Positions 23,984 to 26,067 of a stretch of 38,973 bases of DNA are shown piece by piece. The stretch's first letter is position 1, and each line of letters begins with the position of its first letter. The stretch is from Flavobacteriaceae bacterium (lineage in GTDB: Bacteria > Bacteroidota > Bacteroidia > Flavobacteriales > Flavobacteriaceae), in NCBI GenBank assembly GCA_029938265.1, contig JAOZVI010000008.1, positions 1 to 38,973 of the forward strand, read 5' to 3'. The notes under the pieces are model-generated. The model saw only the letters and a list, made by a program, of their open reading frames with translations. It did not search any database and was not told the DNA's origin. Position numbers and translations under genes: made by a program.

Positions 23984-24333
23984 TGCTACCTCAGGAGTTT
24001 TCAATAGAATATTTACAAGAAGCTGAAAACAAAGAATTTTTAAAAAAATTAATTCTTCAAATAAGAAAAGATGCACAAATGGTTGGTGTGGATTTTGAAT
24101 TAAATGAAGAAAGTTCTCCTATTGGATTAGTAAATTATTTACAGTATTTTTTAAGTAATTTAGTTAGAAATGATTTTGCTGCCTATGTAAATTTTTTATA
24201 CCGAGTTGATATTTCTGAAAAACAGTTAATGAATTTACAAGATTTAGAAATTAGTATTCTTGTAAATAATATTGCCATCCTTTTATTAAAAAAAGAATGG
24301 CAGAAAGTATGGTTTAGAAGTAAAAACTTATAA
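23983..24333 (+). CDS. Conserved hypothetical protein, translationally coupled to polyprenyl synthetase
   Basis: TAATG overlap with upstream stop; helical, acidic N-terminus, conserved-looking 'NDFAAYVNFLYRVDISEKQL...KKEWQKVWFRSK'. Confidence 0.75.
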   Translation: MLPQEFSIEYLQEAENKEFLKKLILQIRKDAQMVGVDFELNEESSPIGLVNYLQYFLSNLVRNDFAAYVNFLYRVDISEKQLMNLQDLEISILVNNIAILLLKKEWQKVWFRSKNL

Positions 24334-24907
24334 TAGGTGTCCAGGCTGAATTATAAGGGCTGGTTGAACTATGTAAAACATCAAATTGAAAGCCAAATGC
24401 AACATGTCCGGTAACATAAGAAGCACCCAAATATAAGCCGTTATTCCAAAAACTATCATTTGAATAATAATTATTATAATTGGAGTTTAAACCTTCATAT
24501 TCTACAGTAAATTGTAAAAAACGCATAGGTCTGAATCCAACCATTGCACTTCCTCCAAAGGAGTTTGAGCTATAGTCATAATAAATAGAGTTATAATAAC
24601 TACTGTTTTTTGAGTACATATAGGTTAATCCTACACCGGTAAAAAATTTTGGTGTAAAATGATAATATGCCTTTGGAGCAATTAATACGTTAGCGCCTTC
24701 GTTCCAAAATGAAAATCCAACATTACCACCAAAATTCCACCTGGGTTGAAAAGCAGGTTTAGTGTATTGTTTTGTAACGGTTTGTTTAGTAGTTTCATTG
24801 CCGGATTGATACTGGTAATTAGAATTATTTGGAATCACCTTTTTTTGAGCGTATAACGAATTTATTAGTAAAGTAAATATAAGTATTAAAGTAATTTTTT
24901 TAAACAT
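24314..24907 (-). CDS. Outer-membrane beta-barrel/porin-like hypothetical protein
   Basis: Signal peptide 'MFKKITLILIFTLLINSLYAQ'; alternating aromatic beta-strands 'WNFGGNVGFSFWNEGANVLIAPKAYYHFTPKFFTGVGLTYMYS'. Confidence 0.75.
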   Translation of the reverse strand: MFKKITLILIFTLLINSLYAQKKVIPNNSNYQYQSGNETTKQTVTKQYTKPAFQPRWNFGGNVGFSFWNEGANVLIAPKAYYHFTPKFFTGVGLTYMYSKNSSYYNSIYYDYSSNSFGGSAMVGFRPMRFLQFTVEYEGLNSNYNNYYSNDSFWNNGLYLGASYVTGHVAFGFQFDVLHSSTSPYNSAWTPIISFYF

Positions 24908-25004: not shown

Positions 25005-25078
25005 GGACCCATAGCTCAGTTGGTTAGAGCACCTGACTCATAATCAGGGGGTCGAAGGTTCGAGCCCTTCTGGGTCCA
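25005..25078 (+). tRNA. tRNA with CAT anticodon, probably tRNA-Met (elongator)
   Basis: Cloverleaf: acceptor GGACCCA/TGGGTCC, D-arm GCTC/GAGC, anticodon stem CCTGA-CTCATAA-TCAGG, T-arm GAAGG-TTCGAGC-CCTTC; CCA not encoded. Confidence 0.93.
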
Positions 25079-25083
25079 CATAT

Positions 25084-25119
25084 AAAACCAAAATATCTAA
25101 ATGATGTTTTGGTTTTTTT
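25084..25119 (+). terminator. Terminator after tRNA (AAAACCAAAA...TTTTGGTTTTTTT)
   Basis: 10-bp stem followed by T tract immediately 3' of the tRNA. Confidence 0.75.
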
Positions 25120-25242: not shown

Positions 25243-25250
25243 TATATTTG
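25243..25250 (+). promoter_or_regulatory. Bacteroidota-type -7 element TATATTTG upstream of the 60-aa ORF
   Basis: Matches TAnnTTTG, 44 bp upstream of the ATG. Confidence 0.5.
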
Positions 25251-25294: not shown

Positions 25295-25477
25295 ATGGCT
25301 AAAAAATACTCAAAAGCAATATTATTAATTTTATTAATAGTTTTTGCTAATAGTGCTTATGCACAAGGGCCTCCCCCTCCTCCTCCTCCAATTACACCAA
25401 TTGATGGTGGTGTTGTAGCTTTGTTTCTAGCTGGTGCAGCCTATGCAATTAAAAAGATTAGGGATAAGAATAAATAA
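25295..25477 (+). CDS. Small secreted Pro-rich protein with PIDGG-type (PID-CTERM-like) C-terminal sorting signal
   Basis: MAKKYSKAILLILLIVFANSAYAQ signal peptide; GPPPPPPPITPIDGG; TM segment VVALFLAGAAYAI; basic tail KKIRDKNK; own promoter-like element. Confidence 0.85.
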   Translation: MAKKYSKAILLILLIVFANSAYAQGPPPPPPPITPIDGGVVALFLAGAAYAIKKIRDKNK

Positions 25478-25479
25478 TG

Positions 25480-26067
25480 TTAATATTTATTTTGTAGTCT
25501 TGCAACATACTTTCCTATTACATCAAATTCTAAGTTTACATAAGTATTTTCTTTTATCATATGAAAATTAGTATTCTCATAAGTGTATGGTATAATAGCT
25601 ACACTAAAAGTCTTTTCTCTTGAATTTACTACAGTAAGACTTACACCATTAACAGTTATTGAACCTTTTTCTATAGTAATATTATCATATTCAGGATCAT
25701 ATTCAAAAGTATATACCCAGCTTCCTTCAAGCTCTTCAACATTAGTACACCTGCCTATTTGGTCAACATGACCTTGAACGATATGTCCATCTAATCTATC
25801 ATTGAGTTTCATCGCTCTTTCTAGATTTATTTTATCATTTATATTTATATAACCTAAATTTGTTTTGTCAATCGATTCTTTAATAGCGGTTACCGTATGT
25901 GTATTATCTTTTTGAGCTATTACAGTTAAGCAAATTCCATTATGCGCTAAACTTTGATCGATCTTCAATTCGTTAGAAATATTACTTTTTACTGTAATAT
26001 GTAGGTTTTCTTTATCCTTAATTAATTCTATAACTTCACCAAAACTTTCAATAATTCCTGTAAACAT
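25480..26067 (-). CDS. ribE: Riboflavin synthase alpha chain
   Basis: 'MFTGIIESFGEV', 'LAHNGICLTV', 'LDGHIVQGHVDQIG', 'GSITVNGVSLTVV'. Confidence 0.97.
   Translation of the reverse strand: MFTGIIESFGEVIELIKDKENLHITVKSNISNELKIDQSLAHNGICLTVIAQKDNTHTVTAIKESIDKTNLGYININDKINLERAMKLNDRLDGHIVQGHVDQIGRCTNVEELEGSWVYTFEYDPEYDNITIEKGSITVNGVSLTVVNSREKTFSVAIIPYTYENTNFHMIKENTYVNLEFDVIGKYVARLQNKY

Follow-up and report, generated by a model that had tools for sequence, protein, structure and literature searches.

What can be the function of a gene whose product contains almost nothing besides sorting signals? The question is raised by a 60-residue protein of a Flavobacteriaceae bacterium (order Flavobacteriales, phylum Bacteroidota; assembly GCA_029938265.1, contig JAOZVI010000008.1, positions 1 to 38,973; this whole stretch of 38,973 nucleotides is called here the window). 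A first-pass annotation, based on the sequence alone, had described at 25295-25477 a protein with a signal peptide, seven prolines and a PIDGG tail resembling those of exosortase substrates, and had left three options: a tiny processed peptide, a substrate or decoy of the sorting enzyme, or a minimal membrane protein. The existence of this gene, designated below as the mini-gene, is confirmed. The interpretation as an exosortase substrate is supported and, of the three options, the evidence favours a processed substrate. From sequence comparisons, the mini-gene probably encodes a nearly passenger-less substrate of the exosortase XrtF, which would yield a short proline-rich peptide for functions at the cell surface.

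The mini-protein and its relatives

The list of open reading frames of the window contains the mini-gene with an ATG start and a TAA stop, and its product MAKKYSKAILLILLIVFANSAYAQGPPPPPPPITPIDGGVVALFLAGAAYAIKKIRDKNK holds the seven prolines in a row. The following parts were distinguished:

25295..25477, + strand: PID-CTERM mini-protein of 60 residues (coding sequence including the stop); open reading frame, and match to NF046080 at 44.6 bits for a curated cut-off of 26
25295..25363, + strand: predicted Sec signal peptide MAKKYSKAILLILLIVFANSAYA, residues 1-23, with the putative cleavage site AYA/Q; n/h/c layout and hydropathy
25364..25396, + strand: the entire "passenger", QGPPPPPPPIT, 11 residues
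25397..25411, + strand: PIDGG sorting motif; NF046080
25412..25450, + strand: hydrophobic helix VVALFLAGAAYAI, 13 residues; mean hydropathy 2.35
25451..25474, + strand: basic tail KKIRDKNK; 5 K/R among 8 residues

The regional hydropathy and charge agree with this succession of n-region, h-region, AYA/Q, linker, PIDGG, helix and basic tail. The signal peptide, recognized by pattern and without a trained predictor, displays a basic n-region, an 11-residue hydrophobic core and the site AYA/Q, and Q24 is predicted to be the first mature residue. The model NF046080 (PID_CTERM) matches residues 34-58 of 60, at the extreme C-terminus, over its full 25 positions, which bears out the composition described at first pass. 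This is the only NCBIfam match of the mini-protein at E <= 10; at this threshold neither the PEP-CTERM nor the GlyGly-CTERM model was matched, the NCBIfam search did not detect the C-terminal sorting domain TIGR04183 of the type IX secretion system (T9SS), and a search against Pfam gave no match.

The full-length relatives have mostly 50-120 residues and display a signal peptide, a short linker, the PID core, a helix of the AAGAAYG type and a basic tail. The first-pass annotation had made its reading dependent on the conservation of the C-terminus, and this is the conserved part among the homologues. Their linker has a median length of 11 residues and a mode of 9, with cleavage sites assigned by pattern, a few of them wrongly; the linker QGPPPPPPPIT thus has the median length, and the near absence of a passenger had been rightly noted. 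Judged from these sequences, the lack of a passenger characterizes the PID-CTERM mini-proteins as a family. Among the matches listed, the tails found at E <= 1e-3 belong to open frames of at most 201 codons, and no large PID-tailed protein was retained at this threshold. Longer frames (1037 and 555 residues) were recovered only at E > 1e-3, with a match confined to the helix and tail positions.

Most homologues possess a predicted A/Q cleavage site. According to the Q-rule of Bacteroidetes, whose tests did not cover inner-membrane proteins, the Gln exposed by cleavage becomes pyroglutamate (PMC5837995). The A/Q site of the mini-proteins agrees with this rule, so their new N-terminal Gln would be present as pyroglutamate. 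The linker also shows some regularity, since the pattern QPxxPxxPx is found in 32/32 of the nine-residue linkers starting with QP, most of which come from one family, and shuffling yields it on average in 0.7 of the 21 distinct QP linkers; only the prolines at positions 5 and 8 count as evidence, because the linkers were picked for QP. Near-identical linkers are found in several copies inside one genome.

Co-occurrence with exosortases

The first-pass annotation had proposed to search the genome for an XrtF-type exosortase and for other PIDGG proteins. The genome of the window (2.73 Mb, 255 contigs, about 90% complete) encodes an XrtF (TIGR04128, 185 bits), which is the sole exosortase detected there and the only place matched by the Pfam exosortase model. 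The next gene is its usual partner, TIGR04127. This XrtF retains EGC, NLLR and H, residues that 20 other XrtF also conserve and that we take to be the catalytic positions of exosortases (Cys-Arg-His triad); no solved structure of a relative was found with phmmer. The second search was negative: NF046080 detects a single PID_CTERM protein in this genome, and a wider profile adds only matches at E = 0.035 and worse. With XrtF present, a lone PID tail does not refute the substrate reading, because many of the genomes compared have just one tail and nevertheless encode the exosortase.

Among 295 genomes of the order, 55 have tails matched by NF046080, and 54 of these 55 encode XrtF. The profile A1 was then built from the tails found by NF046080, without exosortase data, and a genome was considered as PID-positive when a tail was found with A1 at E <= 1e-3. 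In the same order set, XrtF is present in 85 of the 86 PID-positive genomes versus 43 of the 209 PID-negative ones (Fisher p = 4e-40; the Fisher p-values given here ignore kinship). Within the family of the window, all 33 PID-positive genomes encode XrtF and none of the 14 genomes devoid of XrtF is PID-positive (Fisher p = 2e-9). Beyond the order, an exosortase of the XrtF clade accompanies the tail in 48/49 PID-positive genomes (Fisher p = 2e-39, from a table in which the negative total is partly reconstructed).

Most TIGR04128 matches beyond the order fall below the cut-off of this model. We refer to the phylum-wide pairing as that of the XrtF/X/Y clade, because the enzymes examined near mini-genes beyond the order are XrtX- or XrtY-like; XrtF is the enzyme of the genome of the window. 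The two genes can be contiguous: in 11 genomes (G131, G156, G231, G286, G122, G279, G397, G335, G537, G359 and G323) the mini-gene is localized directly 5' of the exosortase gene, on the same strand. Several copies of the mini-gene together with one exosortase occur in single genomes. At the locus L089 (G095:C1, 2992-8184), an XrtX-like exosortase precedes a sequence that weakly matches the XrtX-associated protein, and lies about 4 kb from a PID-like mini-gene overlapping the end of a 1045-residue T9SS-type protein.

Genomic context of the mini-genes

At first pass only a solo locus had been seen; elsewhere in the phylum, the relatives are paired with genes of T9SS cargo. Outside the family of the window, the mini-gene usually follows a gene encoding a T9SS type A sorting domain, mostly within 35 bp or overlapping. 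In the order, this domain was found in 42/47 upstream same-strand neighbours of the near group (gaps not exceeding about 130 bp, plus two tandem copies) and in 2/16 of the more distant or other same-strand neighbours, that is 44/63 when pooled. The value of 42/47 is somewhat favourable because the near/distant split was made after the C-termini had been seen, and the 30/37 obtained beyond the order is the cleaner figure, because that set was not split. In the background, such domains occur in at most about 5% of genes, according to a sample of 12 genomes with 11 to at least 150 domains each and gene numbers estimated from genome size; the genome of the window contains 17 such domains. At a background of 5%, the binomial p-values are 3e-49 for the order and 7e-33 beyond it, kinship being ignored. 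The partner proteins are diverse (propellers, beta repeats, Gly-rich proteins, fibronectin type III), and no domain common to them was found besides the sorting domain.

Some mini-genes are neighbours, separated by a few hundred bases to a few kilobases (L061/L013 in G043:C23, L063 in G241:C63, G554:C109 and G470:C1), and in some of these cases two copies lie behind one T9SS cargo gene. The loci L102, L104, L109, L111, L093, L094 and L095 keep the same layout behind T9SS cargo genes, with PFGF or PIPG replacing PIDGG. In the genus g69 (L079, L087, L088, L090, L114, L028 and L075), the linker has about 35 residues with a shared SFEGMFE / FxGMFE motif; these mini-genes are behind T9SS cargo, and one copy is directly before an exosortase gene.

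In the family of the window, the mini-gene mostly stands alone and converges with ribE. By NF046080, ribE-convergent copies were found in 12 genomes, namely that of the window and 11 others at the same place, and P, I and D are invariant in these 12 homologues. A further 12 ribE-convergent copies, mostly from one large genus, have a drifted motif (PIDEN, PIDQN, PINEN and others), giving a total of 24 genomes, 23 besides that of the window. The diverged members with PIDEN, PIDQN, PINEN, PFGF or PIPG score below the cut-off of NF046080. Since the ribE locus outlives the GG of the motif, the sequences suggest that the core is P-I-D, or looser. In the linker, the prolines are the only residues conserved in this family. 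Copies paired with T9SS cargo replace the solo locus in a few genomes of the family (L007, L089, L097 and L100). The order tRNA - small gene - ribE, which had been proposed for comparison across relatives, is partly borne out: the convergence with ribE extends to 24 genomes, and tRNA-Met adjoins the locus in only 4 of 11 relatives checked.

The surroundings of the mini-gene in the window are the following:

24314-24907, - strand: 197-residue protein, beyond tRNA-Met, with a signal-peptide-like start and the look of an outer-membrane beta-barrel (by eye)
25005..25079, + strand: tRNA-Met (CAT), upstream of the mini-gene; ARAGORN
about 25084-25119: AT-rich inverted repeat with a T run, after tRNA-Met; seen by eye, absent from the scanner output
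25243..25250, + strand: TANNTTTG box (TATATTTG), possible Bacteroidota -7 element, 44 nt 5' of the ATG; pattern match only
25480..26067, - strand: open reading frame converging on the mini-gene, presumably ribE (riboflavin synthase), named from sequence knowledge

The mini-gene has no operon partner in the window, as had been stated at first pass: tRNA-Met lies upstream, ribE converges with a gap of 2 bp, and no T9SS cargo gene is found directly upstream on the same strand. The promoter-like element of its own that had been announced is reduced to a single TANNTTTG box, and a generic sigma-70 scan detected no same-strand promoter-like site from tRNA-Met to the ATG; on this basis an own promoter is plausible but unproven.

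Proposed processing and known systems

In the processing that we propose, the mini-protein would be exported by Sec and cleaved by signal peptidase I at AYA/Q, the new N-terminal Gln being converted into pyroglutamate. The C-terminal helix would keep the stub in the inner membrane with the PID motif facing the periplasm, where XrtF, through its Cys-Arg-His residues, would cleave at or near PID(GG). The enzyme would then hand a Pro-rich peptide of roughly 13-16 residues to an acceptor, or free it, and the helix and basic tail would remain. The processed peptide may act in attachment at the cell surface: across most of the phylum, it would probably help the T9SS cargo encoded upstream to be displayed or anchored, and in the family of the window the one solo copy beside ribE probably does a general job.

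We infer this surface role from the pairing with T9SS cargo genes and from the phenotype of xrtF deletion. In Flavobacterium johnsoniae, deletion of xrtF or of its partner gene reduces sand colonisation and biofilm formation and abolishes zorbs, and the same defects are caused by deletion of porU and porV, which belong to T9SS (PMC10936215). The substrates of XrtF were left to future research by the same study and were expected to be unlike PEP-CTERM proteins (PMC10936215). The mini-proteins are the best candidates for these substrates, with the ribE-convergent mini-gene in the family of the window and the mini-genes behind T9SS cargo elsewhere. More tentatively, exosortases of the XrtF/X/Y clade might produce throughout the phylum small Pro-rich conjugates, each needed to display or anchor the T9SS cargo encoded upstream, with a general-purpose copy linked to ribE; we consider this extension possible but doubtful. 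If true, it would link two systems of surface sorting that have been considered separate until now, and would explain why the deletion of xrtF resembles those of the T9SS sortase and shuttle in F. johnsoniae. The coupling to T9SS would then be an unrecognized part of surface building in Bacteroidota.

Several observations weigh against an XrtF substrate. In the order, 43 genomes with XrtF have no tail detectable at E <= 1e-3. In the genome G026, a strong PID tail lies on the contig C96 (L004 and L173), which looks native, and no exosortase was found in this genome; either the assembly lacks the exosortase gene or a different enzyme fulfils its function. G431 is a second exception, with a marginal match. 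Near mini-genes beyond the order, the enzymes examined comprise five XrtX-like ones, of which one is about 700 bp distant, and one that is XrtY-like; none is XrtF. In the genome of the window the mini-gene has no XrtF or T9SS cargo gene beside it, and many relatives (PIDEN, PIDQN, PINEN) have lost the GG. T9SS domains were found in all 68 genomes checked, PID-positive or not, so their presence alone discriminates nothing and was ruled out as a discriminator. Finally, the cleavage, the transfer and the acceptor are inferred. Concerning G026, a contamination is unsupported, the tetranucleotide composition of the contig fitting its own genome. The sister genome of G026, G014, is also devoid of XrtF.

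Part of these data would also suit a minimal single-helix membrane protein, with a periplasmic polyproline segment and left uncut by XrtF, for example a subunit of XrtF or a helper in the export of T9SS cargo. A short segment with a helix and a basic tail would form a stable bitopic protein, co-occurrence and adjacency are expected of a partner as well as of a substrate, and the genome of the window has a single copy. We nevertheless hold this option to be unlikely: the tripartite C-terminal tail has the layout of exosortase substrates, the conservation is centred on the PID motif, and the many copies for one exosortase suit an enzyme and its substrates better than subunits. The fixed length and regular prolines of one large group, and the near-identical linkers in several copies of one genome, could recall a secreted signalling peptide, in which XrtF and signal peptidase would free a pyroglutamate-capped Pro-rich peptide, active outside the cell as a signal of the species; with only the prolines of the linker conserved in the family of the window, and a pairing with diverse T9SS cargo genes that points to a structural role, this is quite improbable.

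That the gene is a decoy or a remnant of the sorting machinery and yields no product of its own would agree with the almost absent passenger and with the four genomes of the family that encode XrtF and have no detectable copy. However, 24 genomes keep the gene beside ribE, many of them with an altered motif, and the same mini-architecture is found throughout the phylum, which makes this explanation very improbable. A short open frame in the AT-rich gap between tRNA-Met and ribE could also arise by chance, but the match to NF046080, the homologues at the same place and the homologous genes that start elsewhere a few bases from the upstream stop codon rule this out in practice. An XrtF substrate thus remains the probable reading.

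The PID-CTERM tail family and the exosortases are already catalogued. NF046080 matches the tail of the mini-protein and covers the tail alone. The models NF046080 to NF046083 (PID_CTERM, XrtX, XrtX-associated protein and XrtY) have consecutive accessions, so the NCBI curators probably paired or built PID_CTERM, XrtX and XrtY together. Neither the term PID-CTERM, nor the conserved mini-peptide with the architecture of its precursor and its regular linker, nor the pairing with T9SS cargo was found in the literature searched, outside of which lie most subscription journals.

The XrtF system (TIGR04128 and TIGR04127; Fjoh_1448/Fjoh_1449) is found in the genome of the window as the same pair in the same order, and in its family PID-like tails occur only with XrtF. 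In this genome, however, the xrtF gene is not beside the mini-gene, the two being on separate contigs (C143 and C24, respectively). XrtX and XrtY (NF046081 and NF046083) adjoin PID-CTERM mini-genes outside the order, whereas no second exosortase was detected in the genome of the window. T9SS type A cargo (TIGR04183) is the product of the genes paired with most PID-CTERM mini-genes outside the family of the window; contrary to this cargo, the mini-protein lacks a T9SS C-terminal domain, and such a neighbour is absent from the window.

The substrates of the PEP-CTERM/EpsH and LPXTG/sortase systems normally carry a passenger domain, whereas the PID tail sits on mini-proteins. The motif, helix and basic tail at the C-terminus are shared by these systems and the PID tail, and enzyme and substrates are likewise co-distributed (PMC3237569). 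The GlyGly-CTERM/rhombosortase system shares the Gly-Gly of the motif and, in genomes with a single target, the location of the target gene beside that of the enzyme (PMC3237569), but the enzyme linked to the PID tail is an exosortase and the GG is dispensable in relatives. Haft and Varghese paired rhombosortase with GlyGly-CTERM from co-distribution and from adjacency in single-target genomes (PMC3237569). Evidence of both kinds is available for the PID tail and its exosortase.
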